Of a stretch of DNA of 35,086 bases, positions 8,879 to 22,360 are shown one piece after another (position 1 is the first letter of the stretch; every line of letters starts with the position of its first letter). The stretch is from an uncultured Acetatifactor sp. Lineage in GTDB: Bacteria; Bacillota; Clostridia; Lachnospirales; Lachnospiraceae. The DNA lies in assembly GCA_947588205.1 (NCBI GenBank), contig CANPYG010000022.1:1-35086 (forward strand). Direction: 5' to 3'. Made by a program: the position numbers and the translations under genes. The notes beneath the pieces are model-generated. The model was not told where the DNA came from and made no database searches. It saw only the letters and a program-made list of their open reading frames with translations.

Positions 8879-8955
8879 ACAAACTCCCTGGCATTTTTCG
8901 AGAATGTCCGTTCCTATTACGGCTTTCCTGCGCATCCGTTCCCGTCACGGTCCGT

Positions 8956-9606
8956 CTACTGCAGCCGGTAACCCACCTTGTACACCGCTACCAGGTGTTC
9001 CTCCCAATGCAGCTTCTTTTTCAGCCTCTGCACATGAAGATCCACCGTCCGGCTTTGTTCCAGATATTCGCCGCCCCAGACATTTTCGTAAATCGTATCC
9101 CGGTACAGGGCGATGTTCCGGTTTCGCACAAACAGTAAAAGAAGGTCGAATTCCTTCATGGTAAGGGGAACCTGTTCCCCATTCTGGACTACAGTCCGGG
9201 AAGCGGTATCAATGGTGATATCAAAGATTTCCATCAGCTTCTCAGCTTTATTGTACCGCCGCAGCACCGCTTCCACCCTGGCTAACAGTTCTACGATTTC
9301 AAAGGGCTTGGGCAGATAATCATCCGCCCCCATTTTAAGCCCCTTCACCTTATTCTCCGTACTGGACAGGGCTGTCAGGAAAATCACTGGAATCTCCAAC
9401 CCTTTTGCATACTCCATCAGCTCATATCCATTGATCCCAGGAAGCATGATATCCAAAAGCACCAGATCAAAATGCTCGTTCATCATCAGATCCGCAGCTT
9501 TCTCGCCATCCAGTGCGCATACACAGGAATAACCCGCTTTTGTCAGATTGATCCTGATCAGATTGGAGATCGGTTCCTCATCCTCTGCCACCAATATTTT
9601 AATCAT
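8956..9606 (-). CDS. VanR/OmpR-family response regulator
   Basis: A two-domain cytoplasmic regulator of 216 residues: receiver (1-118) with the acidic pair E9/D10, phospho-acceptor D52 in LLDIMLPG, switch T79 and K100 in LPKPF; then a winged-helix DNA-binding domain (about 125-216) ending in HVQRLKKKLH and the wing KVGYRLQ. The ATG at 9606 is chosen because GAGGGAGA lies 6-7 bp upstream; an ATG at 9624 would overlap that site. It is encoded 22 bp after the lipoprotein and 77 bp before its probable kinase. It probably controls its own operon; no clear direct-repeat binding site could be assigned near 10700. Confidence 0.9.
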   Translation of the reverse strand: MIKILVAEDEEPISNLIRINLTKAGYSCVCALDGEKAADLMMNEHFDLVLLDIMLPGINGYELMEYAKGLEIPVIFLTALSSTENKVKGLKMGADDYLPKPFEIVELLARVEAVLRRYNKAEKLMEIFDITIDTASRTVVQNGEQVPLTMKEFDLLLLFVRNRNIALYRDTIYENVWGGEYLEQSRTVDLHVQRLKKKLHWEEHLVAVYKVGYRLQ

Positions 9607-9628
9607 TTCATCTCCCTCTCCCATAGCT

Positions 9629-10660
9629 TTAATATGATCTTATATTTTCCGGCACTGTGGACGCGTCCGGCACGATAGGCATGTCCTCCGCCGGCTCTCC
9701 GATCACAAAATCGTCCGAATATATATCATCGAAAGCCTTGCTCATTTGGAGCATGGCCATATATTCTCCGTCCACATATTTAAATATCCTGAACTTCAGG
9801 TGCTGCGTACTTCTGAAATCGCCATATACCGAAACATACCTGAGTGCAGCAATCACATCTTTATCGCCGTCCTTATCATAATCCGTCAAAAGGATACACT
9901 CCACGCCTGTACATTCCTCGTACTGGTCGGCGGATGGATCGAATTCAGCCATATACGGGAATGCGTAAACGATCTCCTCCCCCCTGGCAAGATAAAACAT
10001 GGCGTCCTTTGCGGGAAGATAAGGGTTCTGCTGCATGCAGGAGATAAAGGTCACCTGCCCGAAATCATTCAGCTCCAGGTCAAAGGTCTGATCCTCCACA
10101 ATCTCCATTTCGGAATAGGGAAGCCTCTCCAGCAGGAAAAACACGCCTTCCCAGTACACCCATATCACATCCTCGTTGCCATCCAGTAAAAATATCGTGG
10201 ATCCGAAGGTATAGGCAAAGCTTTCATCGGATGGAGAGGTCATCGGAATCATCTTGACGGAATCCCTCTCCCCGATCCAATCGTCCATACTGACCTGGAA
10301 AGCCTCTTCCAGGGAATCCCTGTTGTCAAAGGCATAAAGTCCCAGGTCAAGCTGCCCGAAGGGTGTTATGTGACCGTTATAACAGAAAATATCCTCTGTC
10401 AAAAGAAGTACCGTATCCAGGTGGCTATAAATTTCTTCACTGCTGAGCGCATACACCTTGGAAGCCTTGAAATCCTTCACCTGATAGGCCCCGCCCTGAA
10501 AGCCGGCGATACTATTCTGCAAACCGCCTGCTTCCAAATCCTGGGCATCCGTTTCACCGGATGCCGTGCTTTCTGCCTCCGGACCATCCTGACGGCTGCA
10601 GCCGGACAGGAAAAGCAGCATCATTCCATATAAAAGTAAAAAAATCCAAAAACGTTTCAT
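9629..10660 (-). CDS. Lipoprotein of unknown function, first gene of the envelope operon
   Basis: A 343-residue exported lipoprotein. The signal peptide (1-20) ends in the lipobox LSGC, with C21 as lipidation site, followed by an acidic low-complexity spacer (22-50). The mature domain is not recognised. It contains one calcium-loop-like stretch, DYDKDGDKDV (260-269), of the sort found in FG-GAP or dockerin-like domains. The ATG at 10660 has only AAGGCAG about 10 bp upstream. Being the first gene before a VanR/VanS pair and a carboxypeptidase suggests an outer-surface sensing or accessory role, which is inference. Confidence 0.75.
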   Translation of the reverse strand: MKRFWIFLLLYGMMLLFLSGCSRQDGPEAESTASGETDAQDLEAGGLQNSIAGFQGGAYQVKDFKASKVYALSSEEIYSHLDTVLLLTEDIFCYNGHITPFGQLDLGLYAFDNRDSLEEAFQVSMDDWIGERDSVKMIPMTSPSDESFAYTFGSTIFLLDGNEDVIWVYWEGVFFLLERLPYSEMEIVEDQTFDLELNDFGQVTFISCMQQNPYLPAKDAMFYLARGEEIVYAFPYMAEFDPSADQYEECTGVECILLTDYDKDGDKDVIAALRYVSVYGDFRSTQHLKFRIFKYVDGEYMAMLQMSKAFDDIYSDDFVIGEPAEDMPIVPDASTVPENIRSY

Positions 10661-10699
10661 TTAACCAGTCTGCCTTAAAGATGTATCATTTTTGTATCT

Positions 10700-10728
10700 A
10701 TTTTATACGCTTTTTCTTACGGTTACAA
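10700..10728 (-). promoter_or_regulatory. Promoter of the envelope two-component operon
   Basis: On the minus strand TTGTAA (complement of 10723-10728) and TAAAAT (complement of 10700-10705) are 17 bp apart, 40 bp upstream of the lipoprotein ATG. It lies back to back with the cotJ promoter. Confidence 0.55.
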
Positions 10729-10734
10729 GAGAAA

Positions 10735-10768
10735 GTTGCACACTATCGTCGGTGCAACATACTATAAT
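10735..10768 (+). promoter_or_regulatory. cotJ operon promoter with mother-cell sigma features and a dyad
   Basis: The sequence CATACTATA (10758-10766) fits the sigma-K -10 pattern CATAnnnTA completely and the sigma-E -10 CATACAnT at all but one base. A sigma-E-like -35 GCACACT (10738-10744) is 13 bp upstream, and an AC (10740-10741) is 16 bp upstream as sigma-K prefers. A vegetative-like TATAAT (10763-10768) overlaps but lacks a good -35. A perfect dyad GTTGCAC-N10-GTGCAAC (10735-10758) covers the -35 region and may be an operator. The cotJ operon of B. subtilis is sigma-E controlled, which makes this reading likely. Confidence 0.5.
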
Positions 10769-10802
10769 ATTAACAATAACAACCTTTTATGAAAGGAAAA
10801 TC

Positions 10803-10973
10803 ATGCAGGATTATCGTTCTACCGAACAATGTGACCAATTCCCGGTTGCCATGGCATATGTTCCCTGGCAGCGTTTTAACGGAATCAGCGAGAATCTGGA
10901 AGAAGCCTATCAGACGGGCACCATTTTCCCTGAGCTGGATCTGCCTTTCACAGGAAGGAGATGCGTATCATGA
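10803..10973 (+). CDS. cotJA: Spore coat-associated protein CotJA
   Basis: A 56-residue protein with the CotJA core: MAYVPWQRFNGI then the invariant-looking GTIFPELDLPF block (about 38-48). CotJA belongs to the inner spore-coat CotJ set deposited by the mother cell. AAAGGA at 10792-10797 stands 5 bp before ATG. The stop overlaps the next start as ATGA. It is shorter than the B. subtilis protein (about 80 residues) but contains the conserved segment. It leads the cotJABC operon from the sigma-E/K-like promoter. Confidence 0.88.
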   Translation: MQDYRSTEQCDQFPVAMAYVPWQRFNGISENLEEAYQTGTIFPELDLPFTGRRCVS

Positions 10974-11221
10974 ATCAGAAGGAACAGATGTTTTACGAGA
11001 TCGGCATCGTTGATTTCGTAGTCGTTGAGCTGACTGAATTCCTGGACACCCATCCTTCCAATCAGGAAGCCCTGGAATATTTCAACCATTATTCCAGGAT
11101 CAGGAATCAGATGGTGGAGGAATTTTCCCGGAAATATTTCCCCATCACCGCCAATTATGCAAGATGTGACAATGAATGGACTTGGGGCTCCGCCCCGCTT
11201 CCATGGGAAGGAGGATGTTAG
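10970..11221 (+). CDS. cotJB: Spore coat protein CotJB
   Basis: An 83-residue CotJB family protein. The N-terminal helix pair (FYEIGIVDFVVVELTEFLDT) and the C-terminal tryptophan-rich end (WTWGSAPLPWEGGC) are typical. It is thought to act with CotJA and the catalase-like CotJC in the inner coat. AAGGAG (10955-10960) is 9 bp before the ATG at 10970, which overlaps the cotJA stop. An ATG at 10961 would touch the ribosome site and is less likely. cotJC starts 3 bp after its stop. Confidence 0.9.
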   Translation: MNQKEQMFYEIGIVDFVVVELTEFLDTHPSNQEALEYFNHYSRIRNQMVEEFSRKYFPITANYARCDNEWTWGSAPLPWEGGC

Positions 11222-11224
11222 TCT

Positions 11225-11409
11225 ATGTGGATTTATGAGAAAAGACTGCAGTTCCCTGTCAACATTAAGGAGCCTAACGCGAAGCTGGCGCAGGTCATCA
11301 TCTCCCAGTTCGGCGGCCCTGACGGGGAACTGTCCGCCAGCATGAGATATCTTTCCCAGCGCTATACCATGCCCTATAAGGAAGTGGCGGGGCTTCTTAC
11401 CGACATCGG
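11225..11409 (+). CDS. cotJC: CotJC, N-terminal part of a split gene (residues 1-62)
   Basis: CotJC is a spore-coat protein of the manganese catalase family. This part encodes MWIYEKRLQFP through LLTDIG and includes the first metal ligand E35 (GPDGE). The start has AAGGAGG 10 bp upstream. At 11408-11410 (GGT, Gly62) the family sequence stops and the frame runs on into the mobile element for 34 unrelated residues, ending at 11515. The rest of the gene begins at 20121. Fusing the GG of 11408-11409 with that of 20121-20122 gives a continuous 213-residue protein. Unexcised, the gene can only make a 96-residue fragment lacking three of the four other metal ligands and more, so it should be inactive. 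Confidence 0.92.
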
Positions 11410-11432
11410 TAGGGAAGCCCCTAAAATGCTCC
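11385..11432 (+). other. Left attachment site (attL) of the element
   Basis: The cotJC sequence gives way to element sequence at GGTA (11408-11411). The inner arm 11410-11432 (TAGGGAAGCCCC, then TAAAATGCTCC) is the partner of 20098-20120 at the other end. The hybrid site itself is strongly dyadic: GGGGCTTC 11389-11396 pairs with GAAGCCCC 11414-11421, and TACCGA 11398-11403 with TCGGTA 11406-11411. Confidence 0.8.
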
Positions 11433-11473
11433 ATTCTGCCGGACAGCAAATAAGGGTGACGAATGACGACATT

Positions 11474-13063
11474 TTATTCAGCCACAAACTTCCATTTGTA
11501 TGGCAGAAATTTTAAATAGACGTCCATGTGATCGCGGTCGTACACAATTATCTTATCTAAAATCTGCCTGTAAAACTCATCCTCGTATTCCATTCCTCCC
11601 ATCATTTCCAGGACGGCATCCCTGATTTCTTTTATTCGGTTTCGCTGCCCGGTCAAAGCGTCCTGCATATCGGTGTTTTGGGAAATAAGCTGTAGATTGA
11701 CGATTTTTTCTTCATATTTTACCCTGGCAGCAGTAAATTCCTCTTTTGTGATTTCTCCGGATAAATATAAATCAATCAGCCGGATTTGCTTGTTTTCGAG
11801 ATCCTCGACCTGCGCTTTGATTTTTTCGGGAGAGAGCTCTTCCGCATCCAAGGCAACGATGGAATAGATGATAGAAAGCAGATCATCCGCTGTTTTCTGC
11901 CTGTTGTATCTTAATCCCTTCGTCAGCAGGCACATGACATGGATCAGGTCCTCGTTCCGGATGCCCTGTCCCACACAGCCCGCCTGCTTCCCTGTTCCAT
12001 CAACGTGCGGGGCGCCGTTCCTAGAGGCTTCCAGACACCGCCATGCTTTATATGTGCTCCCGTCCGGGCGGGTCTTATACCTTGCCACATAGCCCGCGCC
12101 ACAGCATCCGCACTTGATTTTGCCTGAAAATAAATAGCGGTCACTGTATTTTTCCCTCCCTTTCCGCCCTAAGGAGCGTTCCTCTAAAATCCGGTTGGCC
12201 TCGTCAAACATCTCACGGGAAATGATGGGCTCGTGATGATCCCTGATAATGACGAACTCTTCTTCTCCCCGGTTATATTTCTTCTCATGGGAAAGGAAAT
12301 CCGGGGTATAGGTTTTTTTCTGTACCAAATCCCCGCAGTATTTTTCATTGCGGAGAATACGGAGAATCACAGTATTCTGCCATTCCCTCCCCCGCATCGG
12401 TACGATCCCCTCCTCGCGGAGCTCACGGGCAATTACATGGGTGCCTTTCCCCTCCACAACAAATTTATGGAAAATAAGCCGCACAATCTTCGCGCCCTCT
12501 TCATTGAGGTACATTTTGCCCCCACGGACATCGTATCCGAGCATGTCCCTGCCAAAAACCACGCCCCGTTCCATCTGGCGTTTCTGACCCCATTTCACGC
12601 GCTCCGAGGTCTTCCGGCTTTCCTCCTGTGCGATAGAAGACATAATTGCAAGGCGAAGCTCGGCGTCACTGTCTAAAGTATTGATATTATCATTCATAAA
12701 AATTACACCCACGCCGCATTTCTTCAGCTCTCGGGTGTAATAAATACTATCAAGTGTATTTCTGGCAAACCTTGATATTTCTTTTGTGATGACCAGATCA
12801 AATTCGCCATTATGGGCACACGCTATCATACGGTTAAATTCCCTGCGCTTTTTCGTATTGGTGCCGGAAATTCCTTCATCGGCAAATATTTCATATAATT
12901 CCCAGTCAGGATTATGCTCGATAAACTGTTTAAAATAACGTCTCTGACTTTCAAAAGAATTGGCCTGATCTTCATGATCCGTGGAAACCCGGCAATAAGC
13001 TGCCACCCTTTTTTTTCGACCGTTTCTCTTTTGCCCCTGGTTTATGGATTCATGCCTGTCCAT
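11474..13063 (-). CDS. Large serine recombinase (SpoIVCA-like), excisionase/integrase of the element
   Basis: A site-specific DNA recombinase of 529 residues. The N-terminal resolvase domain has the catalytic serine S27 in AAYCRVSTD and the arginine-rich block KEISRFARNTLDS. A recombinase domain (about 165-275) with GRDMLGYDV and ILRNEKYCGD follows. Next come a zinc-ribbon (KCGCCGAGYVARYK through the later Cys pair) and a coiled coil with LYLSGEITKEEF (about 400-455), as in integrases that control excision direction. The length is near SpoIVCA (about 500). The ATG at 13063 follows AAAAGG by 7 bp; a TTG at 13081 is possible. Its stop is 63 bp from the left junction, the usual position for an integrase. 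No clear sigma-E, sigma-K or sigma-A promoter was found in the 109 bp upstream, so its timing is unknown; readthrough from the upstream gene is possible. Confidence 0.93.
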   Translation of the reverse strand: MDRHESINQGQKRNGRKKRVAAYCRVSTDHEDQANSFESQRRYFKQFIEHNPDWELYEIFADEGISGTNTKKRREFNRMIACAHNGEFDLVITKEISRFARNTLDSIYYTRELKKCGVGVIFMNDNINTLDSDAELRLAIMSSIAQEESRKTSERVKWGQKRQMERGVVFGRDMLGYDVRGGKMYLNEEGAKIVRLIFHKFVVEGKGTHVIARELREEGIVPMRGREWQNTVILRILRNEKYCGDLVQKKTYTPDFLSHEKKYNRGEEEFVIIRDHHEPIISREMFDEANRILEERSLGRKGREKYSDRYLFSGKIKCGCCGAGYVARYKTRPDGSTYKAWRCLEASRNGAPHVDGTGKQAGCVGQGIRNEDLIHVMCLLTKGLRYNRQKTADDLLSIIYSIVALDAEELSPEKIKAQVEDLENKQIRLIDLYLSGEITKEEFTAARVKYEEKIVNLQLISQNTDMQDALTGQRNRIKEIRDAVLEMMGGMEYEDEFYRQILDKIIVYDRDHMDVYLKFLPYKWKFVAE

Positions 13064-13172
13064 TCTCACGCCTTTTCCCAATAAGCATTTATTCAGTCTT
13101 CAGATAACGATCTTCAAGCGCCGCCAAACGTTGTTTCCGCTAAGAAACATTCAACAGCCTTCTCTAAGGAAA

Positions 13173-14306
13173 TTATTCTCCATATAGGATCTCGGTTCCT
13201 CGCTCCGGGTAAAGCGTATCATCGAACACATAATAATTCGGGTGCTCCGGATACGATTCGGTATATGCCTGTACCTGTGCATCCGTCTGCATAAAACAAC
13301 GATAATGGTCTCCGTTCCTGCGGGGACTGCTGTCACAGTGATACCAGCCATCCCCCAGATTGACAAGATTCCACCAGTGATCGCTCGTTCCTCCGACCCG
13401 GCGTATTTCCATTGTCTCTATTCCACATTTTTCCAGAAGAATTGTAAAAGTCGCATAATACACATAACAATCCCCGCACTTGTCATGTAGACCTTCAAAG
13501 GCCCCGGCATAAATCGTGCGTTCCCCGGCGGAATAGGAATACCGTATTTTTGTCCTGCACCAGTTCCAAAGCGCATAACAGATATCCCACTTTGTCATGT
13601 CGTCAGTCACAAGCTCTCCGATCAATGCATCTGCAAGCTCATCTACCTCTTTTTCCAGATCTGACCGTTCCAAAACATATAATATGATCTCTTCTTCCGA
13701 AACGTTGCCGGAAGCGTCCGTCGCCACATAACGAACCGGATATTCCCCCTCCTTTTCCAAGTCCACACTATCATTCTTTATTTCAAGGGAAATCTCCCCG
13801 TCCGCATTATCCGACAAGGTAATCCCTTTTCTATAGGAAACCGAGTCCCCCACATAGATAGTCAAATCCTCCGCCCCCAAAATAACCGGAGGCGTCGTGT
13901 CCACGATTTCCACAGTAACTCCCACTGACTGATCGCCGCAACAGAGCGAAAGCTCATAAACAGCTCCTGCTGCCCGCATTTGCCCTTCTGTCAGCTCCGG
14001 AATAAGCACTGCATCCTCCGGCGCATCCTCCGGGTCAAAAAATACCCTTACATCAAGGCTGCCTCCCGCCTCAACTGTCGCCGCATTTCTTTTGATCCCG
14101 ATAGTCGGTTCCACAGACCTGACCATCATAACAGATTCCTGCGCAGGCGGCAGATCCTCCAAACGGGTTTCCGTTTCCATCGCATCTTCATCTTCAACCA
14201 CTGGGATAGCTTCATCCGCCTGTTCCAGGACAATCTTCACACATATACAGAAACAAACCAGGAATACGCCAATACATAGCGATCGTTTTATCCTACTGTG
14301 CCTCAT
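13173..14306 (-). CDS. Membrane-anchored Ig-like/transglutaminase-like protein
   Basis: A 377-residue protein with one N-terminal membrane segment (about 9-26), an acidic spacer, and two beta-rich regions. The second (about 136-212) is a bacterial Ig-like domain with DTTPPVI at its start and YVATDASGNV near its end. A transglutaminase-like cysteine domain (about 225-377) follows. The catalytic triad is visible as C280 (KCGDCYVYYA), H310 (SDHWWNLV) and D325 (WYHCDSSP). Such proteins act on the outer surface as proteases or peptidyl-transferases; the substrate is unknown. The promoter at 14346-14374 rules out the TTG at 14342, which would lie at the transcription start, so ATG 14306 is chosen. 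It lies directly upstream of the recombinase gene on the same strand. Confidence 0.85.
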   Translation of the reverse strand: MRHSRIKRSLCIGVFLVCFCICVKIVLEQADEAIPVVEDEDAMETETRLEDLPPAQESVMMVRSVEPTIGIKRNAATVEAGGSLDVRVFFDPEDAPEDAVLIPELTEGQMRAAGAVYELSLCCGDQSVGVTVEIVDTTPPVILGAEDLTIYVGDSVSYRKGITLSDNADGEISLEIKNDSVDLEKEGEYPVRYVATDASGNVSEEEIILYVLERSDLEKEVDELADALIGELVTDDMTKWDICYALWNWCRTKIRYSYSAGERTIYAGAFEGLHDKCGDCYVYYATFTILLEKCGIETMEIRRVGGTSDHWWNLVNLGDGWYHCDSSPRRNGDHYRCFMQTDAQVQAYTESYPEHPNYYVFDDTLYPERGTEILYGE

Positions 14307-14345
14307 GCCATTCTTTCGCTTCCTCTGATGTTCACATTTCAAGTT

Positions 14346-14374
14346 ATCTTAACACAACTGATACTAAGTGTCAA
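14346..14374 (-). promoter_or_regulatory. Sigma-A promoter of the transglutaminase-like gene
   Basis: A perfect TTGACA (complement of 14369-14374) and TAAGAT (complement of 14346-14351) are 17 bp apart on the minus strand. It could also drive the recombinase gene 1.2 kb downstream by readthrough, since no terminator is evident in between. Confidence 0.7.
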
Positions 14375-14405
14375 TAAATCCACTTTTCTCTTCGGTTATG
14401 TTGTT

Positions 14406-14561
14406 ACAGTTCAGCCAGCCGCCCAATATGATGGAAAATCGTGCTTGCACGAATTTTCCATCATGTTTGGCAGCTGAGGGAGCGCCATTTTATGAGCAAA
14501 GGTAGTCGCGAAGCGACGGACAGCGCGTAGCGCGGCTTTGCGAATGGCGCGGCTGAACTGT
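14406..14561. repeat. 156-bp MITE-like element with nested inverted repeats
   Basis: Perfect 11-bp terminal inverted repeats, ACAGTTCAGCC (14406-14416) and GGCTGAACTGT (14551-14561). Inside lie a 16-bp stem with a 4-nt loop (14428-14443/14448-14464, one bulged A), a stem GCGCCATT/AATGGCGC (14482-14489/14543-14550), GCAAAG/CTTTGC (14496-14501/14536-14541), and two small hairpins GTCGC-GAA-GCGAC (14505-14517) and CGCG-TAG-CGCG (14524-14534). The whole forms a branched, cloverleaf-like fold in DNA or RNA. No transposase is encoded. It overlaps the 3' end of the small ORF. Confidence 0.7.
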
Positions 14562-14759
14562 TCTTTGGTTATGGCATTTTTGACTGTACTGGTTTTCAAG
14601 CTGGTCCAAACAGCGTTCCCGCTGCGTGCAGGTCAATAGCCTTCTCTTCTCCAAAGAAAAGAGGATGCCCTTTTGAATATTCAAAAGGAACGCTGCATAT
14701 TCCTGTCCATCCAAATCCGGAACAGGGTCGCCCGCATAAATAAATTCTCTATGCTTCAG
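14490..14759 (-). CDS. Small element-borne ORF, 3' end overwritten by the MITE-like repeat
   Basis: A frame of up to 89 residues reads LKHREFIYAGDPVPD then DGQEYAAFLLNIQKGILFSL, with helical charged sequence (EKRRLLTCTQRERCLDQLE) after it. This looks like a real soluble helical protein, possibly one of the short conserved proteins found beside recombinases in Clostridia, but I cannot name the family. The start is unsure: a GGGAGG site lies 9 bp before a CTG at 14759 where an ATG would be expected, and an internal TTG lies at 14714. The last 20-25 residues (rich in R, S, C) come from the inserted repeat, so the native C-terminus is probably lost. It may be a decayed gene. Confidence 0.4.
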   Translation of the reverse strand: MKHREFIYAGDPVPDLDGQEYAAFLLNIQKGILFSLEKRRLLTCTQRERCLDQLENQYSQKCHNQRTVQPRHSQSRATRCPSLRDYLCS

Positions 14760-14843
14760 TTGCCAACACCTCCCTCGTTCTCAATAAATATATGAACCTG
14801 TGCTTGGCCCATATAACGAGGGGGCTAATCCCCTTTTTATGCG

Positions 14844-14871
14844 ATTCTATCTATGCAATTCTATCTATGCA
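14844..14871. repeat. 14-bp perfect tandem duplication
   Basis: ATTCTATCTATGCA occurs twice in a row (14844-14857, 14858-14871) in the gap between the small ORF and the kinase gene. Just before it a small hairpin GGGG-CTAAT-CCCC with TTTTT (14821-14838, plus strand) is terminator-like, but no plus-strand gene precedes it. Nothing else was found in 14760-14903. Confidence 0.6.
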
Positions 14872-14903
14872 GAGGACCTTATGAGCAAATCAGCAGTGAA
14901 ATA

Positions 14904-14930
14904 CTCCCTGGCAAATGATCATTTCGGGAG
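14904..14930 (-). terminator. Hairpin at the end of the RR-ABC-kinase operon
   Basis: CTCCC (14904-14908) pairs with GGGAG (14926-14930) around the perfect 12-bp palindrome AAATGATCATTT (14913-14924), which contains the kinase stop codon. On the minus strand it is followed by TATTTC, a weak U-tract, so termination efficiency is uncertain. Confidence 0.4.
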
Positions 14931-15848
14931 CCCAATGATCATGTACAATCTATTGTTTTCGTACCTGGCCGCTATGGTTCCTTCCATCTGTTCCATCAGG
15001 GTTCTGGCAATCGACAGCCCCAGTCCCGTGGACTTCCGGGCGGCTTCCACCGTATAAAAACGGTCGAACAGTTTTCCCACCTGTACTTGGTTTAAGCCGG
15101 AAGCCGTATTGGCGAAAATGATGGTGCCGGCTGCAGATAAAGTGATCTCCAGGTCGCCGTCGCTGTATTTTATGGCATTATTCAGGAGATTGGAAAACAC
15201 CCGGAGCAGGGCGGAACGGTTTAACGTCCGCACCACCCTTTCCTCCGGGATCTGGACCACAGGCTCAATATTCCGTTCCTTTAACGCAGTGTAGAAAGAT
15301 GCGATGCTTTCTTCCAGCACAGCGCCTACATTTACGGGCTCCACACTTTTATTGTTTTCCGCAGAAAGGATCATGGAATATTGGAAAAGCTCGTCGGTCA
15401 GCTGGGTTAAAAGCTCCGCCCTGTTGCGGATGATGCTAAGATACTGTTCCGCCTTACTGCTGTTTCCTTCTGCCCTCCCGGCTTCTTCCTCTTCTTCTCT
15501 TCCGGTTCTTTCTTCCACTTCCAACAAATCCAAATAGCTGCAGATGGCTGTCAGGGGCGTCCGCAGATCGTGGGATATATTCGTAATCGCATTCTGGAGT
15601 TCCCGGTTCCCCTGCTCAAAACGGTGTCTTTCCTCCCGCAGCTTCCGCAGCTGGAGGTTTAAGCTGTTCGCCAGGCGGCACATATAGCGGTCTGTGGAAG
15701 AAATGTCGATCAGGGTGTTTGTATTGGTGGAGAGTCTGTCGGCAAAAGCGCTCTCCATTTCCTGTGCAGCGCTTTGCAGCGCATATATTTTCAAGAGCAG
15801 CAAAATAATGACGACAGCCATAATGCCTACAAGTATCCATAACCACAT
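14919..15848 (-). CDS. Sensor histidine kinase of the element's ABC exporter operon
   Basis: A 309-residue kinase with a single N-terminal membrane segment (about 2-22) and almost no extracytoplasmic sensor. HisKA has H93 in NISHDLRTPLT; the N-box is NLLNNAIKYS (about 220-229) and the G-box STGLGLSIAR (about 273-282). An acidic insert (EEEEEAGRAEG, about 118-128) lengthens the dimerisation helix pair. Small sensors of this type often detect antibiotic load through the partnered ABC transporter, as in the bacitracin and lantibiotic systems. AAGGGGG lies 9 bp before ATG. It is last in the operon, 30 bp after the permease gene. Confidence 0.9.
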   Translation of the reverse strand: MWLWILVGIMAVVIILLLLKIYALQSAAQEMESAFADRLSTNTNTLIDISSTDRYMCRLANSLNLQLRKLREERHRFEQGNRELQNAITNISHDLRTPLTAICSYLDLLEVEERTGREEEEEAGRAEGNSSKAEQYLSIIRNRAELLTQLTDELFQYSMILSAENNKSVEPVNVGAVLEESIASFYTALKERNIEPVVQIPEERVVRTLNRSALLRVFSNLLNNAIKYSDGDLEITLSAAGTIIFANTASGLNQVQVGKLFDRFYTVEAARKSTGLGLSIARTLMEQMEGTIAARYENNRLYMIIGLPK

Positions 15849-15878
15849 TTCTACAGCCCCCTTTCGAACCCGCCTTCT

Positions 15879-16709
15879 TCACCGGATGTTTTTCTTTTTA
15901 AAAGCGTATAGCCCGCCCGCTGTTGTCACTGCCGTAAGAAATAGAGAGGAAAGCAACATCCGGACCGGACTGGCGACCTCCAGCCGCCACACCCGAAGCC
16001 CCTGTCCCGTGGGCAGAAAGTCAACGATAAAATCGTAAATCTCCCGCTTCCTTCCGGTGATATATCTCGGGTTGGGAGAAGCTTCCGTCATTTCCAGCCC
16101 GTTTACGGTGAGCTGAACGCCGCTTATCATTTCCGGCTCGCTGAGTCTGTTATAAACCAGGCTCGCCAAAAGCAGCAGCCCGATAAATAACAGGATGGAA
16201 ATAAGAAACGTATTGGCTTTATTGGCCGACAGCATATTGATTGCCGTAAAGATAGCGGAAAACGCCAGGATAAACAGGACGGCAACAAACAGGAAAAGAA
16301 CCAGGCGTAAAATTCCTATTTTCCAAAAGCCAAGGGCGGGAACAGCCACAAGGGCCGCGACCAGCCATACTAAGGTGATAAACAGGGTGGCAATAAAAGT
16401 AGTGAGCAGGCTCGCCAGGTAAATGCTTGTCCGGGTATGCCCGATGATGATCTTATTGCGGATGGTGCCGTCGTTGTATTCCGTTCCGAAAAACATACTG
16501 CTGCACAGGGAGCAGAACAGGCCGATGGATAATGCGAAATGAAAATAATACTTATCAATGGAATACTGATACTCCGACAAATCCATTGTGGCCTGCCTGC
16601 AGCCGTTCAGCATATAAGCAACCGCGTATACTAACATGGCCCCCATACAAAGCCAGAATATTTTATCCTTCCAGAGCCTTGTAAAATTTGAATGCAGTAG
16701 TTTTCTCAT
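15879..16709 (-). CDS. ABC-2 type permease (BcrB-like)
   Basis: A 276-residue membrane protein with about six hydrophobic segments. The first loop contains the ABC-2 family hallmark FFGTEYNDGTIRNKIIIGHTR (around 73-93, helix coupling to the ATPase). It should form the membrane channel of the exporter with the ATPase encoded just upstream; the start codon overlaps that gene's stop as ATGA, showing translational coupling. Substrate is not evident; the set resembles BcrAB-type bacitracin or lantibiotic self-protection pumps. Confidence 0.88.
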   Translation of the reverse strand: MRKLLHSNFTRLWKDKIFWLCMGAMLVYAVAYMLNGCRQATMDLSEYQYSIDKYYFHFALSIGLFCSLCSSMFFGTEYNDGTIRNKIIIGHTRTSIYLASLLTTFIATLFITLVWLVAALVAVPALGFWKIGILRLVLFLFVAVLFILAFSAIFTAINMLSANKANTFLISILLFIGLLLLASLVYNRLSEPEMISGVQLTVNGLEMTEASPNPRYITGRKREIYDFIVDFLPTGQGLRVWRLEVASPVRMLLSSLFLTAVTTAGGLYAFKKKNIR

Positions 16710-17620
16710 TCTTGCACCCCTCCTCCCACCAAACTCATGTAATAACTTTCCAGACTCTCATCCCGTTCCTGGGCCGAGATCAGCTCGCAGTTTTCCTTTG
16801 CCAGGGCTGCGCTCAGGCGGGAAAGATTCACTTTCGCGTAAACATCCGCCGACACATCGCTTAAAATTTGATAGTCAATTTCCATTTCATCCAAAACCCG
16901 GGCAAGAGCCTTTGTGCTGCTGACCTCCATGCGGATGCACTTCCTGCAGACGGCTTCCAGGTCATGGGCGCTAATCTCTTTTACCATGCGTCCGCCGTCG
17001 ATAAAGCCATAATGAGTGGCAAATTTCGATAATTCATCCAAAATATGGCTGGAAATCAGAACCGTGATCTGTTTTTCCCGGTTTAGTTTCAGGATCAGTT
17101 CACGGATTTCAATGATACCCTGAGGATCCAGCCCGTTGGCAGGCTCGTCCAAGACCAGGAAATCTGGATCTCCCGCCAGAGCCACGGCAATTCCCAGCCG
17201 CTGGCGCATACCCAGGGAAAAGTTTCTGGCCTTCTTTTTCCCCGTCTGGTCAAGCCCTACCAGCTTCAGGATATCAAAAAGCCCGTCAAAAGAGGGAAGC
17301 CCCAGGATACGGTACTGCTGCTTTAAATTGTCTTCCGCCGTCAGGTTCAGATAGATGGCAGGGGTTTCCACCACCGCTCCCATCCTCCTGCGGGATTTCA
17401 GAATGTCCTTTTCGGTATTTTTCCTGCCGTACAGGGTATAATCTCCCGCTGTGGGCTCCTGCAGCCCGCAGATCAGGCGGATCAAAGTGGTCTTGCCGGC
17501 GCCGTTTTTTCCCACAATTCCGTAAATGGCTCCCCTGGGAACGTTCATGGTAAGATTGTCCAGCGCCTTGAAGCCCTTGTAGCTTTTGCCCAAGGCGTTG
17601 GTTCTGAGAACATAGTCCAT
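16706..17620 (-). CDS. ABC transporter ATP-binding protein (BcrA-like)
   Basis: A 304-residue ATPase. Walker A GKNGAGKT (37-44), Q-loop region near 85-100, signature SLGMRQRL (135-142), Walker B FLVLDEP (154-160), D-loop and switch H192 (SSH) are all intact, followed by an 80-residue C-terminal extension, as in BcrA (about 306 residues). The start at 17620 has AAGGAGG 10 bp upstream; an in-frame upstream ATG at 17737 would run through the regulatory repeats. It is the first gene after the repeat-bearing promoter and is coupled to the permease. Likely role: ATP-driven removal of a peptide antibiotic from the membrane (inference). Confidence 0.93.
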   Translation of the reverse strand: MDYVLRTNALGKSYKGFKALDNLTMNVPRGAIYGIVGKNGAGKTTLIRLICGLQEPTAGDYTLYGRKNTEKDILKSRRRMGAVVETPAIYLNLTAEDNLKQQYRILGLPSFDGLFDILKLVGLDQTGKKKARNFSLGMRQRLGIAVALAGDPDFLVLDEPANGLDPQGIIEIRELILKLNREKQITVLISSHILDELSKFATHYGFIDGGRMVKEISAHDLEAVCRKCIRMEVSSTKALARVLDEMEIDYQILSDVSADVYAKVNLSRLSAALAKENCELISAQERDESLESYYMSLVGGGVQE

Positions 17621-17653
17621 ATAGACATAACCTCCTTCACATTTGATGCCGCC

Positions 17654-17710
17654 ATAATAGCAGACAACCGTAAAGAAAGCGGTAAAGAACACAGTAAAGA
17701 TTCGGTAAAG
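17654..17710 (-). promoter_or_regulatory. Phased direct repeats and -10 box upstream of the ABC ATPase
   Basis: Four copies of GTAAAG (plus-strand 17670, 17682, 17694, 17705; a weaker fifth GTAAA at 17724) are spaced 12, 12 and 11 bp, about one helical turn. On the minus strand they lead to TATTAT (complement of 17654-17659), 34 bp before the ATPase start. OmpR-type regulators bind such phased repeats over a poor -35, so the regulator encoded just upstream is the obvious candidate. Confidence 0.6.
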
Positions 17711-17763
17711 AAAATGAAAAAAGGTAAAACTGTCCAAGGCTTAAAACGAAATGATTTTGCAGT

Positions 17764-18483
17764 CTACTTCAGCTTGAATCCGATTCCCCAGACGGCCTCA
17801 ATGCAGTCGCCGCCCCCTGCTTCCCGAATTTTCCTCCGCAAATTGCTGATGTGCATTTTCAGGGAGCTTTCCGTACAGTCCGGGGTGTCCTGGCTAATCC
17901 GGTCTAACAAAAGGGATTTGGTAACCACCTGGGCAGGATTTTGCATGAGCATTTTCAGGATGGCAGTTTCCGTCCTGGTCAGCTTTACCCCTTTTTCGCC
18001 CGGACTTTTTTCACCTGGATCTTTTTCGCCTGACCTGTTTTCACATGGACTTTTTTCATCCAACGAAAGCATGTGGGAATCGGTATCCAGCCTGAGCATC
18101 TGATAGCTGAGCACATGGGCTTGTTCCTTACCCGGGGCATTGCGCAGATGGACGGCTATCCTGGCCAACAATTCCTTCGTATGGAATGGCTTTGTCACAT
18201 AATCCACCGCCCCGCCAAGCAGCAGAGCCGCCTTTTCGTCAGGATCCTTCCTGGCGCTCAGGACAATGACCGGGATCCCTTTTATCTGGGGCAGCACCTG
18301 TTCCCCTTCTAAGCCCGGCAGCATCAGATCCAACAGGATCAGATCCGGCTTTGCCTGGGAAAGGACGAGCAGGGCTTCTGTTCCGGAATAGGCGCGAGAA
18401 ACCTGATAGCCTTCCTTCCGGAGCGTCTCTTCCAGGGCGTTTCCAATATGAATATCATCATCAATGACCAGGATTTTCTTCAT
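17764..18483 (-). CDS. OmpR-family response regulator with repeat-expanded linker
   Basis: A 239-residue regulator: receiver (1-118) with D8/D9, phospho-acceptor D52 in LLDLMLPG, S76 and K98 in TKPF; winged helix (about 165-239) with SSLKMHISNLRRKIR and the wing WGIGFKLK. The linker (about 142-165) is made of four 5-residue repeats of the GEKSP type, encoded by a 15-bp tandem repeat; normal OmpR linkers are shorter and not repetitive. GAGGT is 5 bp before ATG. It lies 143 bp upstream of the ABC genes and probably controls them through the GTAAAG repeats. Confidence 0.92.
   Translation of the reverse strand: MKKILVIDDDIHIGNALEETLRKEGYQVSRAYSGTEALLVLSQAKPDLILLDLMLPGLEGEQVLPQIKGIPVIVLSARKDPDEKAALLLGGAVDYVTKPFHTKELLARIAVHLRNAPGKEQAHVLSYQMLRLDTDSHMLSLDEKSPCENRSGEKDPGEKSPGEKGVKLTRTETAILKMLMQNPAQVVTKSLLLDRISQDTPDCTESSLKMHISNLRRKIREAGGGDCIEAVWGIGFKLK
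17991..18058 (-). repeat. 15-bp minisatellite inside the response regulator gene
   Basis: Four to five 15-bp units of the form GAAAAAAGTCCNGGN keep the reading frame and encode the EKSPG linker repeats of the regulator (minus strand). Slippage here would change linker length without frameshift. Confidence 0.75.
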
Positions 18484-18500
18484 TTCTACCTCGTTCCATT

Positions 18501-18598
18501 CTGCTGTGTTTCTTTCTGTTGTGTTTCTTTTTGTTGTGTTTCTTTTTGTTGTGTTCCTTTTTGTTGTTTCCTTTGTGTTCCTTTTTGTCGTATTTCAC
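18501..18598 (-). repeat. 15-bp tandem array in the regulator's 5' leader
   Basis: Four good 15-bp copies, TTGTTGTGTTTCTTT type (18501-18515, 18516-18530, 18531-18545, 18546-18560), then degraded copies to about 18598. On the minus strand the transcript reads AAAGAAACACAACAA repeatedly, an A-rich unstructured leader ending 17 bp before the regulator's start. It fills most of the gap between the DUF4143 and regulator genes. Confidence 0.8.
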
Positions 18599-18631
18599 AA
18601 TTCTCGACCGCTTTCTGTATGGCAGAATATT

Positions 18632-19927
18632 CTAGATACAAAATGCAGCGTAAAGGGGAACGGTCTTTTTTCCATCTTCAAAGCCGAAGTTTTTCGCAGA
18701 AAGCTTGATGGCGTAATCGGGCTTGTAGGTATCCATATAGACCTTCAGGCTCTTAGCTCTTGTGTTGTCGGCGGATTTGACCTCAATGGGAATGAGTTTT
18801 CCTTCCCTCTGGATGATAAAATCAATTTCCGCCCCACGCTCGGACTCCCAATAATAGGTCTGATAGCCGTTTATGGTGAGCTGCACATTTACATAATTTT
18901 CCACCATGCCGCCCTTAAAGTCATTCAGCTCCTCCACCATGTAAAGGATATCGTTAGCCGCTAAATCCTTTTTGGCGGCAAGCAGCCCCAAATCGGAAAC
19001 ATAAATCTTAAAGGCGTCGATGTCACGATAGTTTTCCAAAGGCTTTTTTACCTGTTCCACCTTAAACACCTGCGACACGATACCAGTGAGCCTCAGCCAT
19101 TCGATGGCATTTTCAAATTCGGAAGCCCTTGCGCCTTTTTTGATCAGTTTATACTGAAAACGGGTGTTCTTCCTGGAAAGCTGTACGGTGATATTGTCAT
19201 AAGCAAGCCGCGTCTTTTTGATCTCATTCAGGTTATTGTACTTGCTCATGTCGTTAAGATAGCTTGCCAGAATGGTGTCCTGGGTATGGCGCACAAGGAT
19301 GTAATCCCTGGTCTGGACAAATTGCATGACGCACTCCGGCATACCGCCCACAATCAAATACTGTCGATAAAGCAGCATCGCCGCATCATGCAAAGCGGAG
19401 GGCATCGGCGTGTCGGTCTGGAAGCACTTTTTAATCTGCTCTACTAAAGCGTCTTCCCCCAGCGCAAGCATGAATTCCTCCATGTCCATTGGGAAAAGGG
19501 TTTTCATGTCGACCTTGCCCACAGGGAAGGAAAACCTTGCCCGATTGACTGCAACTCCCAAAAGACTGCCCAACGCGACGATGTGATACCCGGGAGCATC
19601 CTCGCAAAAATACTTGAGCGAAGTCAGCGCCCGTTCACAAAGCTGCACCTCGTCAAAGACAATCAGCGTTTTTTCTTTGACGATGGTTTGCCCAGCGATA
19701 TGCGATAAAATAGGGATCAGATAATCTGGGCTGATGTTTTCCTCAAAGGTTTCCGAGAGCTTCGGATTGGTTTCAAAGTTGAAATACGCCACATTCTCAT
19801 AGCGTGTGCGCCCAAACTCCAAAAGGGAATAAGTCTTGCCCACTTGCCTTGCTCCCTGCAGGATCAGCGGCTTGCGGTGTTCGCTATCTTTCCATGCTTC
19901 TAAAAAAGCCATGATTTTTCGGTACAT
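18632..19927 (-). CDS. AAA ATPase with DUF4143 domain (element copy)
   Basis: A 431-residue member of the AAA_14/DUF4143 family. Walker A is GARQVGKT (25-32), Walker B KTLIVFDEVQ (86-95), and the C-terminal domain has a restriction-enzyme-like motif: GAEID (365-369) followed by E382-x-K384 in PIEVKS. These proteins are common and poorly understood; ATP-dependent DNA or toxin-like functions have been suggested, none proven here. It has its own promoter and AGGAGG site 7-8 bp before ATG. It lies at the right end of the element; a paralogue of nearly equal length lies outside the element at 31711. Confidence 0.9.
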   Translation of the reverse strand: MYRKIMAFLEAWKDSEHRKPLILQGARQVGKTYSLLEFGRTRYENVAYFNFETNPKLSETFEENISPDYLIPILSHIAGQTIVKEKTLIVFDEVQLCERALTSLKYFCEDAPGYHIVALGSLLGVAVNRARFSFPVGKVDMKTLFPMDMEEFMLALGEDALVEQIKKCFQTDTPMPSALHDAAMLLYRQYLIVGGMPECVMQFVQTRDYILVRHTQDTILASYLNDMSKYNNLNEIKKTRLAYDNITVQLSRKNTRFQYKLIKKGARASEFENAIEWLRLTGIVSQVFKVEQVKKPLENYRDIDAFKIYVSDLGLLAAKKDLAANDILYMVEELNDFKGGMVENYVNVQLTINGYQTYYWESERGAEIDFIIQREGKLIPIEVKSADNTRAKSLKVYMDTYKPDYAIKLSAKNFGFEDGKKTVPLYAAFCI

Positions 19928-19952
19928 AAATAACCCTCCTTTTCAGAAGTCA

Positions 19953-19980
19953 CTTATAGGATAGCAGATGTTCGTGTAAA
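19953..19980 (-). promoter_or_regulatory. Promoter of the element DUF4143 gene
   Basis: TTTACA (complement of 19975-19980, 5 of 6) and TATAAG (complement of 19953-19958, 5 of 6) are separated by 16 bp on the minus strand, 26 bp before the ATG at 19927. Confidence 0.6.
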
Positions 19981-19995
19981 AATCAATGGATATTT

Positions 19996-20027
19996 TGCGA
20001 ATATTCGCATTAAATTGCGCGAATATT
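19996..20027. other. Perfect palindrome and direct repeat near the right end
   Basis: TGCGAATATTCGCA (19996-20009) is a perfect 14-bp palindrome, and its half GCGAATATT recurs at 20019-20027, 22 bp downstream. It lies about 100 bp inside the right attachment site and upstream of the DUF4143 promoter. It could be an operator or an accessory-protein site for recombination; sequence alone cannot decide. Confidence 0.5.
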
Positions 20028-20097
20028 TTTACCAAGCTCGCGCCGTCCGACACAAAGTTCATTCTCTTTGCGGGCTTGTCCGCCATTTTGGGCTTAT

Positions 20098-20145
20098 GGA
20101 ACATTTTCGATGCTTCTGTAGGTACGGAGGAACTGGCCCATATGG
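20098..20145 (+). other. Right attachment site (attR) of the element
   Basis: Element sequence changes to cotJC at GGTA (20121-20124). The inner arm 20098-20120 (GGAACATTTTCG, then ATGCTTCTGTA) is an inverted partner of 11410-11432, matching at 17 of 23 positions when the circle is closed. The most symmetric centre is the GG dinucleotide at 20121-20122, equal to 11408-11409. Confidence 0.8.
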
Positions 20146-20579
20146 AAATCGTCAGCGCCATCATCTATCAGCTGACCAGGAACCTGTCCATGGAAGAGAT
20201 CGAGAGAAGCGGTTTTGACAAGTATTATGTAGATCATACCTTAGGACTTTGGCCCCAGGCTGCAGGCGGAATCCCCTTCAATACCTGTGAATTCCAGGTA
20301 AAGGGCGATATCGTGACCGACCTGGTGGAGGATATGGCTGCCGAACAGAAAGCCCGCTCCACCTATGAGAATATCCTGAGACTGGTTGATGACCCGGATG
20401 TATGCGCACCCATCCGGTTCCTGCGCCAGAGGGAGATCGTCCATTTCCAGAGATTCGGGGAAGGACTGAGAATCACCCAGGATCACCTTGACAGCCGGAA
20501 CTTCTACGCATTTAACCCGGAATTTGACCGCTGCAAGGACTGCGAAGGAACGCCGGTCAATAACGGCTGCTGTGGCTGA
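20121..20579 (+). CDS. cotJC: CotJC, C-terminal part of a split gene (residues 62-213)
   Basis: This continues CotJC exactly where the left part stops: GTEELAHMEIV onward. In reconstituted numbering it carries the metal ligands E65 and H68 (EELAH), E136 (EDMAAEQ) and H169 (REIVHFQRF), matching the spacing of manganese catalase ligands, plus a Cys-rich tail (RCKDCEG, GCCG). No start codon or ribosome site belongs to it: an open frame extends upstream to 19986 only through element sequence. No frameshift or stop interrupts it, so purifying selection appears to have kept it intact despite the split, which argues for functional reassembly. A strong terminator follows at 20649. Confidence 0.92.
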   Translation, partial: GTEELAHMEIVSAIIYQLTRNLSMEEIERSGFDKYYVDHTLGLWPQAAGGIPFNTCEFQVKGDIVTDLVEDMAAEQKARSTYENILRLVDDPDVCAPIRFLRQREIVHFQRFGEGLRITQDHLDSRNFYAFNPEFDRCKDCEGTPVNNGCCG

Positions 20580-20648
20580 TAATACCCTAATGCCCTTTTA
20601 GGCCATAACATTTACTGATAATGCTTCTGCATTTGCTAACAGTTTAGG

Positions 20649-20692
20649 GCTGCGGCAATCGGATGAATTGCACCGACTGCCGCAGCATTTTC
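20649..20692 (+). terminator. Rho-independent terminator of the cotJ operon
   Basis: A 9-bp stem GCTGCGGCA/TGCCGCAGC, extended after one mismatch by TCGG/CCGA, spans 20649-20686 and is followed by ATTTT. It lies 69 bp after the cotJC stop and 22 bp before the end of the opposing spoVAF gene. Confidence 0.85.
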
Positions 20693-20713
20693 CTGCATCT
20701 GTCAGGTTCCCTT

Positions 20714-22159
20714 TCACCCCCGTTTCTGCAGGGACCCCGGGAGCCGTCTCCTGATCAGCCTGTTTTTCAGCTTCGTCCAGTCAAAAGGAAAGAGCGGATA
20801 AAGATAACTCGTATGGGAAACAGTTTTGTTGCAGGAAAGCGACAGTAAGAAGATCAGGATCCCCGCCACATATCCTGCCAGCCCGAATATTGCCGTCAGG
20901 ATCAGGTTCAGGATTCTCATAAATTTCAGTGCATAGCCCATCTCATAATTGGCCTGGGTATAATTTGCGATAGCGACAAAGGCCATATACAGCATGACTT
21001 CGGAGGAAAACCATCCGCTGTTGACAGAAAATTCCCCCAGCACCAGGGCCGCCATCACGCTCAAAGGAGTGCTCAGCATATTCGGCGTGTTTACGGAAGC
21101 CAGGCGCAGGCCGTCAATCGCCAGCTCCAGGATCAGGAACTGCCAAAGAAGGGGCACATTGGGCGGCTCCTTCAGCATGATAAAGGAAAAGGATTCCGGA
21201 ATCCACTGTGGATGATCCATTAAAAGCAAAAAGGTCGGCGTCATGATATAAGTGAGAATGGCAATGAGGAACCTGGTAAGGCGCAGGTAAGTACCTGTCA
21301 CGGGCGGGAAATAATAATCGTCCGCCTCCTCCACTACGTCAAAGGCTGTAGTGGGAAGTATCATGGCGGAAGGAGAATTATCTACCAGGATGACCAGGTT
21401 GCCCTCCAGGACTTGGGCTGCCGCCGTATCAGGACGCTCCGAATATTTGAATTTCGGAAAAGGATTGAACCAGTGTCTGTCGTAGAGACATTCCGCCAGG
21501 CTTTCCTGATTCATAGTCAGGGCATCCACCTGGATATTTTTTATTTTCTCTTCCACCTCCGCCAGGAATTTATGGTTCACTCTGGAATCCATATAGCAAA
21601 GCACAATATCCGTCTGGGAATAATCTCCCGCTTTCATCATTTTCATGCGGAGGTCAGTGCTGCGGATTCTCCTTCGGATCAGGGCGGTGTTGAATACCAC
21701 GGTCTCCACAAAGCCGTCCTTGGAGCCGCGCATGACCTTGTCTTTTTCAGGCTCTTCCACGCTTCTGGCAGGATAGGTCCTGGCATCGATCAGCAGCGCC
21801 TTGTCGTAGCCGTCCACCAAAAGGATAAACACTCCCGACAAAACCGAATAAATAATGTTTTCCCACTGATCTTCCAGATCCACTTCTACATACGGGATGC
21901 CCTGTTTGGACATCTCATGGGCATTCTCCGGAAAATCCTCCGGCTTCATGTCCATAAAATACTGCAGCAGCTTCTGCATCGTATCGTCCTTGCAGAAGCC
22001 GTCCATAAAATACATGCAGGCTTCCCTGCCGCCGATGTAAATGATCCGGTATACCACATCAAAATTCGTATCCACGGCAAGCATCCGGTTCAGATACTGC
22101 ATATCTGACTGGAAAGAACCGGATAATTTTAAATCTTCGTCCACACTGTTTTTTGCCAC
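20714..22159 (-). CDS. spoVAF: SpoVAF/GerA-family spore membrane protein
   Basis: A 481-residue protein of the GerA A-subunit family: a large N-terminal soluble domain (1-285) and about five membrane segments (about 290-440). The N-terminal stretch with GGREACMYFMDGFCKDD and the short C-terminal tail fit SpoVAF better than receptor GerAA proteins. SpoVAF sits in the spore inner membrane and is linked to germinant signalling and dipicolinate release. It is alone here, without spoVA or gerB/C genes, and converges on the cotJ operon. GGAAGGGAG is 5 bp before ATG. A forespore sigma-G promoter was sought upstream but not convincingly found. Confidence 0.82.
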   Translation of the reverse strand: MAKNSVDEDLKLSGSFQSDMQYLNRMLAVDTNFDVVYRIIYIGGREACMYFMDGFCKDDTMQKLLQYFMDMKPEDFPENAHEMSKQGIPYVEVDLEDQWENIIYSVLSGVFILLVDGYDKALLIDARTYPARSVEEPEKDKVMRGSKDGFVETVVFNTALIRRRIRSTDLRMKMMKAGDYSQTDIVLCYMDSRVNHKFLAEVEEKIKNIQVDALTMNQESLAECLYDRHWFNPFPKFKYSERPDTAAAQVLEGNLVILVDNSPSAMILPTTAFDVVEEADDYYFPPVTGTYLRLTRFLIAILTYIMTPTFLLLMDHPQWIPESFSFIMLKEPPNVPLLWQFLILELAIDGLRLASVNTPNMLSTPLSVMAALVLGEFSVNSGWFSSEVMLYMAFVAIANYTQANYEMGYALKFMRILNLILTAIFGLAGYVAGILIFLLSLSCNKTVSHTSYLYPLFPFDWTKLKNRLIRRRLPGSLQKRG

Positions 22160-22182
22160 ATTAAAACTCCCTTCCTACGGTT

Positions 22183-22203
22183 CACAATGATTGCTATATT
22201 GTG
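22183..22203 (-). promoter_or_regulatory. Dyad upstream of spoVAF
   Basis: CACAAT-N9-ATTGTG is a perfect 6-bp dyad 24-44 bp before the spoVAF start. The gap 22204-22360 between this and dut shows no further feature apart from a CATACAAAA (minus strand near 22270) that only partly fits a sporulation -10 box. Confidence 0.35.
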
Positions 22204-22360
22204 TCCGGGAAAGGGAGTTCTTATTCTTTTGTACTGTTGCATGAACAGCCTTTATCTTTTGTATGGGCAATACTCAATACTGCTGTGAATGTATTGTAAG
22301 GGGATTACCTTGAGGGCTTCCATAAAAGAAAGAAATACCTCTGTCAGATTCTCAAAATAT

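Follow-up and report, generated by a model that had tools for sequence, protein, structure and literature searches.

Intervening elements are known to split several sporulation genes: skin lies in sigK, SP-beta in spsM, vfbin in spoVFB, vrin in spoVR, gin in gerE and yin in yabG, as described in the available text of the reports (PMC4191935, PMC5595907, PMC10747680). Here we describe an element in a 35,086-nucleotide stretch of DNA from an uncultured Acetatifactor sp. (contig CANPYG010000022.1 of assembly GCA_947588205.1, positions 1 to 35,086; the whole stretch is hereafter the window), in which 8.7 kb of non-phage DNA with matching attachment (att) sites splits the coat-enzyme gene cotJC. 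Judging from sequence, we consider it likely that, as the cell sporulates, the recombinase of the element, aided by a predicted directionality factor, would excise it in the mother cell and so restore an intact cotJC. Across the wider group, elements have landed in cotJC repeatedly: recombinases of several lineages use five break sites. Sporulation gene-intervening elements as a kind are already known; notable here are the frequency of the interruption, the number of sites and the multi-piece cotJC.

Like the cotJC element, gin in gerE of Bacillus cereus ATCC10987 is a non-phage element that splits a mother-cell gene at a short common sequence; there, a serine recombinase and the small extra factor GirX were proven to rebuild the gene in sporulation, as is predicted here (PMC5595907, available text). 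The 28.6-kb gin belongs to Bacilli and has three recombinases and a 9-bp common sequence, whereas the cotJC elements mostly carry one recombinase each, reside in clostridial hosts and occupy several sites in one gene. For the Clostridioides difficile skin, the accessible part of PMC5025042 reports by experiment that the recombinase is expressed constitutively from a sigma-A promoter, while the directionality factor CD1234 (72 residues) is under sigma-E and SpoIIID. The same arrangement is predicted for the cotJC element, the likeness being one of layout; the skin target is sigK and its SpoIIID control was shown, whereas the cotJC elements have another conserved box, GTACWWGC, between the promoter boxes. 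Serine-recombinase elements also interrupt a sporulation gene in SP-beta/spsM, vfbin/spoVFB and vrin/spoVR (PMC4191935) and in yin/yabG (PMC10747680), where excision rebuilds the gene or would do so; unlike the cotJC elements, these are phage or phage-like and lie in other genes, and the available text of the two papers mentions no multi-break gene. The C. difficile phage phi027 likewise attaches beside a manganese catalase gene, a CotJC homologue, but in the text available of PMC11222575 that gene is adjacent to attR and uninterrupted. An intervening element in cotJC was not found in the literature searched, most subscription papers being outside its coverage.

The split cotJC of the window

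The N-terminal half of cotJC (11225..11411, plus strand) opens with the ATG at 11225 and extends for 62 codons up to a GGTA core; the C-terminal half (20121..20579, plus strand) runs from GGTA to the stop codon ending at 20579. Both match the Pfam Mn_catalase profile, the N half over positions 1-65 and the C half over positions 60-196. Joined at the common GGTA with removal of the 8,713-bp interval, they give a stop-free protein of 213 residues in which LLTDIG is followed directly by TEELAHME at the junction. An earlier reading of this DNA from its letters alone (the sequence-only reading) had described two open, complementary halves on one strand and a 213-residue in-frame product; coordinates, profile matches and the computed join all agree, with a small correction. 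The open reading frame (ORF) of the N half continues to 11515 and that of the C half begins within the element at 19986, so that the halves count as cotJC only up to and from the core. Upstream lies cotJB, the first gene of the operon (10961..11221, plus strand; Pfam CotJB, 2.1e-25).

Interruption of a sporulation gene whose parts join in frame at a short common sequence characterizes sporulation gene-intervening elements, as do two further features found here: an encoded site-specific serine recombinase, and att sites with an inverted-repeat attP. The large serine recombinase (11474..13081, minus strand; 535 residues) matches Pfam Resolvase, Recombinase and Zn_ribbon_recom and the PHROG 95 integrase family (5.7e-132), and has 80 relatives among the loci analyzed. 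It sits at the left end of the element, all of whose genes are on the minus strand; 62 bp separate its stop codon from the left GGTA, placing it just inside the left junction as had been proposed. The left core (attL, 11408..11411) and the right core (attR, 20121..20124) are common to both halves and recur in relatives. They are flanked by a left arm, GGGAAGCCCCTAAAATGCTCC (11412..11432), and a right arm, GGAACATTTTCGATGCTTCTGTA (20098..20120), which are conserved in relatives and pair with each other. In the putative attP composed of right arm, GGTA and left arm, 18 of 25 arm positions pair, a value not reached once in 5000 shuffles or in 5000 random window pairs.

Many relatives carry arms of the form GGTA-GAGAAGCCCCTGAAATGTTCC on the 5' side and GGAACATT..CG.TGCTTCTCTGGGTA on the 3' side, while recombinases that are 51-53% identical have different arms. 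At one locus (L056), two elements stand in tandem with a real attP of the same form between them. A cotJC 3' piece also occurs twice in tandem in one genome (G060:C68:14660-15094 and 18200-18634), as if two elements were stacked. In three IMG/VR contigs filed as viral (L214, L216, L218), two recombinases face each other across a middle piece of cotJC; these contigs are probably cotJC elements rather than viruses.

No phage structural family was matched in the window element by Pfam or PHROG, which rules out a prophage and places the element in the gin-type non-phage subclass rather than the prophage type of SP-beta and skin. For 13 other elements, in a survey that took in 65 of their 89 ORFs, none occurred among the 25 of 73 families listed. 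A known RNA element was ruled out by an Rfam scan of positions 9000-22500, which returned no match.

The sole other manganese catalase match in the host genome is a fragment on contig 51 (L002, G000:C51:21265-21600) that is without an internal stretch, is out of frame upstream and, read by eye, looks decayed; decay of the split gene in favour of this copy was rejected on that ground. A second intact cotJC beside a decaying split copy, which the sequence-only reading had named as the case against itself, was looked for and not found in the host draft, whose 135 contigs are 92.9% complete and could hide a further copy. That reading had also suggested looking for an uninterrupted cotJC in a related genome. 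G022, of the same genus, has one, and the joined flanks of the window align to it across the junction over 1,033 bp at 74%.

Recurrence, selection and spread

Used as a query, the recombinase found 104 relatives; the analysis went on with the 80 best loci, most of them labelled Lachnospiraceae, Oscillospiraceae or uncultured Clostridia. In 63 of the 80, no more than 400 bp (median 55 bp) separate the recombinase end from a cotJC 5' piece, and in four a 3' piece is as near, so that a cotJC fragment adjoins the recombinase in 67; eight loci have a cotJC piece elsewhere and five have none. The intervals between pieces can be as short as about 2.4 kb (G256) or as long as about 72 kb (G326). Both halves are within reach in 19 sources, and in 13 of these they join to a full-length CotJC of 197-213 residues. 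The remaining six comprise two that stop at a later break (L057, L082), one that stops at a contig end (L087) and three with an extra upstream break (L068, L090, L098), for which the join routine was not built. The sequence-only reading had seen a single case; the case is real, and what had been missed is that such splits are widespread and fall at several sites in cotJC.

The host genome being a 135-contig draft, an assembly artefact or chimera was considered. Both halves and the element are on one contig, and independent genomes show the same split, including the one-contig G282 and the 3.2-Mb scaffold G306; we rule this explanation out as next to impossible.

The two halves of the split genes are under purifying selection, much like intact genes. 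The median ratio of nonsynonymous to synonymous substitution rates (dN/dS) for the N half was 0.222 in split genes (107 pairs) versus 0.182 in the same part of intact genes (12 pairs), and for the C half 0.180 (24 pairs) versus 0.197 (3 pairs), where the counts are upper bounds, some rows being the same stretch fetched twice, and dS is near saturation (median about 1). Premature stops were absent from 78 N halves and 68 C halves. These values bear on the proposal that cotJC is dispensable in the gut and its insertions are neutral dead ends. One could cite for it the 115 of 299 genomes of the host's family that lack a CotJC match, the decayed second copy in the host and the C. difficile cotCB and cotD mutants, which show no significant coat defect in the available text of PMC11222575, so that cotJC may be dispensable. 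Inactivated genes would sit poorly with stop-free halves, a dN/dS of about 0.2 and joins that are exact and keep the frame in 13 of 19 sources, and we regard this proposal as very improbable.

Of 2628 locus pairs, 121 share recombinase DNA of more than 95% identity, in hosts whose CotJB proteins are down to 30% identical; the rank correlation between recombinase and cotJB identity is 0.35. The elements have therefore moved recently between distant hosts. Such spread would also be expected if ordinary integrative mobile elements used conserved cotJC stretches as attB and excised for transfer, perhaps on the signal of a co-resident conjugative element, the rebuilding of cotJC being incidental and not timed to sporulation. 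Some elements do carry mobility or defence cargo, and two loci have the element arm at other sites. Yet both halves keep an intact frame and an intact-like dN/dS, for which regular rebuilding is needed; a single spore gene has five breaks, and no element has lost its halves. We judge incidental rebuilding of this sort to be unlikely and favour excision timed to sporulation.

The cargo of the window element, all on the minus strand and assigned by Pfam, comprises a transglutaminase-like protein with an Ig-like domain (13173..14342), a histidine kinase (14919..15848), an ABC-2 permease (15879..16709), an ABC ATPase (16706..17737; its nearest NCBIfam model, lantibiotic protection, scores below that model's cut-off), a response regulator (17764..18483) and an AAA_14/DUF4143 ATPase (18632..19927). 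A 3.0-kb element at another locus (L048) has a small ORF, a recombinase and, at 8870-9458, a gene pair that by eye seems to be a toxin-antitoxin system. At L063 and L064, a recombinase of the same family has the same att arm past its end and neighbouring DNA that is not cotJC; these are likely secondary integration sites.

Five break sites in one gene

CotJC matches are present in 184 of the 299 family genomes. A second search covered the 44 with a best CotJC E-value weaker than 1e-80, the other 139 being left out, and a gene was called split when complementary pieces lay on separate contigs or more than 1 kb apart. By this definition, with counts read from the table, 35 of the 44 are split; together with the window's genome this makes 36 of 184 cotJC-bearing genomes, about one in five. 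More than one break is present in eight of the 35. The nine genomes left uncounted include two cut by contig ends (G011, G016), one with a frameshift in one place (G037) and six with one usable piece each (G018, G057, G163, G208, G228, G272); among those counted, G173 is without a middle piece and the first piece of G098 begins at a contig end.

The breaks fall near residues 30, 62, 65, 136 and 176. At least one serine recombinase separates the pieces in every one of the 16 split genomes inspected (20 stretches fetched, three of them far-end stretches that held a cotJC piece only). Recombinases of the same site can be alike, with identities of 64-83% to the site-C reference in five genomes and of 78 and 91% to the site-D reference in two; at the residue-65 site (site E), identity to the reference is 33-47%. 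A window-type recombinase is found, at 1e-100 or better, in 17 of the 299 genomes, and most splits therefore use other recombinases. In two genomes, the recombinase matches cover most of the reference at each of two breaks (sites B and D in G262, sites C and D in G273). Among the 39 genomes behind the recombinase loci, cotJC is in three or more pieces in at least nine (G304, G309, G312, G319, G322, G326, G329, G334, G335), with some pieces on separate contigs.

In a more distant relative, Intestinibacillus massiliensis Marseille-P3216T, cotJC is spread in five pieces over 75 kb of one contig, all on the same strand and starting at 271242, 246681, 236722, 203267 and 195650. The third piece consists of 9 bp and a 5-bp core. 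Joining at the common cores TTGGCGGT, GGTACCG, GAACT, and CGC or GCGA, picked by alignment score with the last join nearly tied between its two cores, yields 214 residues in frame that align without gaps to residues 1-197 of the window CotJC. Judged by match or ORF length, three of the four recombinases are complete in size; the fourth, adjoining the last piece, is a remnant of some 200 residues, so that its element may have lost the ability to excise unaided.

A more far-reaching proposal is that the cotJC of gut Clostridia lies in pieces made by unrelated self-excising elements at five sites, and that in species with two to five pieces, down to the I. massiliensis piece of about 10 bp, several site-specific excisions, with a separate recombinase for each and a mother-cell switch common to all, would reassemble a single coat-enzyme gene in each mother cell that sporulates. 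The truncated recombinase led us to lower our confidence in this proposal from somewhat favourable to evenly balanced, and slightly to lower that in the excision of the window element.

In two family genomes (L314, G028:C12:135000-149500; L315, G024:C52:25000-43500), spoIIID appears to be split near residue 40 by 12-17 kb, with a serine recombinase adjoining one piece.

Predicted timing of excision

The candidate for timing is a small ORF (14490..14759, minus strand; CTG start, altered tail), conserved near the recombinase in 71 of 81 sources and mostly 60-75 residues long, which we infer to be a recombination directionality factor. Four relatives of the small ORF gave no Pfam match over cut-off, and one gave none in NCBIfam or PHROG. 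It is preceded by a predicted sigma-E-type promoter, TTATATG-15-CATATATT (14787..14816, minus strand), recognized by leader layout and by a spoIVA-derived matrix, and many relatives conserve TTATATG-15-CATACATT. A regular expression for this layout fits 42 of 72 small-ORF leaders (shuffle mean 0.04, maximum 1). For the matrix, leaders were parsed at 14 of 24 spoIVA and 1 of 20 spoIIID loci, and it was built from 11 leaders of the family, all of spoIVA. At 11 bits or more it finds 61% of the 72 small-ORF leaders; among 59 recombinase leaders the figure is 3.4%, for shuffles it is 2.4% and for random stretches of the window 2.2%. As a control, the host's own cotJ leader fits poorly at 8.6 bits. 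Many recombinase leaders carry, by eye, a sigma-A-like TCGACA-17-TATACT. At sites C and D, other recombinases with other small ORFs have the same leader layout, with 15 nucleotides between the boxes (7 of 16 recombinases). The host encodes SpoIVA and SpoIIID.

Taken together, a model for cotJC excision can be proposed. Sigma-E, perhaps with another regulator, would drive the small ORF from the predicted mother-cell promoter; the predicted directionality factor and the serine recombinase would then excise the element during sporulation, and cotJC would be rebuilt in the mother cell. Were excision confined to the mother cell, the spore would inherit the split gene. In the window (14787-14830, minus strand), as in the leaders found in relatives, CCCTCGTT and AACGAGGG flank the predicted promoter. 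Because the ribosome-binding site overlaps the 3' arm, it might be hidden in read-through RNA but not in RNA started at the ORF's own promoter. For a hairpin over this site, 86.5% of cells are paired, versus 83.7% in shuffles and 50-68% in slid versions; hiding of the site in read-through RNA is suggestive only.

Several observations weigh against this model, beside the C. difficile mutants and the I. massiliensis remnant described above. The 72 leaders are not independent, and of the 40 distinct ones the regular expression fits 15; besides the 11 leaders, a sigma-E consensus served to seed the matrix, which at 9 bits finds 71% of small-ORF leaders, 37% of recombinase leaders, 7% of shuffles and 7% of random stretches. 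Nine of the 16 recombinases (six at site E, three divergent ones at site B) are without such a small ORF. In the window, the small ORF has the unusual start and tail given above, and cargo lies between it and the recombinase. The leaders share the GTACWWGC box, which the sigma-E consensus does not explain, and two loci outside cotJC, L259 (G222:C2) and L260 (G306:C3), have the same layout before a small ORF and a recombinase; the trigger could thus be another regulator. Five of the 80 recombinase loci have no cotJC at hand, two of them being those with the same arm at other sites, and a search of IMG/VR with the attP pattern for an excised circle gave 0 matches.

The L259 and L260 elements adjoin sigma-like genes (gene names by eye), and their GTACWWGC layout is perhaps a shared regulon of mobile elements, a point in favour of excision for transfer with cotJC rebuilt incidentally. 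The small-ORF leaders, on the other hand, resemble spoIVA leaders, and the window element and the minimal elements are without sigma-like genes. From the sequence-only reading, a skin- or gin-like element whose loss would restore cotJC stands firmly on its anatomy, its recurrence, the att arms, the uninterrupted congener and the purifying selection on both halves; excision timed to sporulation is carried by the conserved small ORF behind a sigma-E-like promoter and for that reason stays at the level of a prediction.

Intervening elements in sporulation genes have been known as scattered cases, whereas cotJC is hit repeatedly: of the family genomes searched that carry it, roughly one in five has it split, and the gene occurs in up to five pieces. 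The elements offer new pairs of integrases and att sites, and annotation will label such split genes as broken. If excision proceeds as proposed, three questions would become directly testable: why insertions are tolerated in mother-cell genes, how a single switch came to be shared among unrelated elements, and whether it matters when the CotJC coat enzyme is made.

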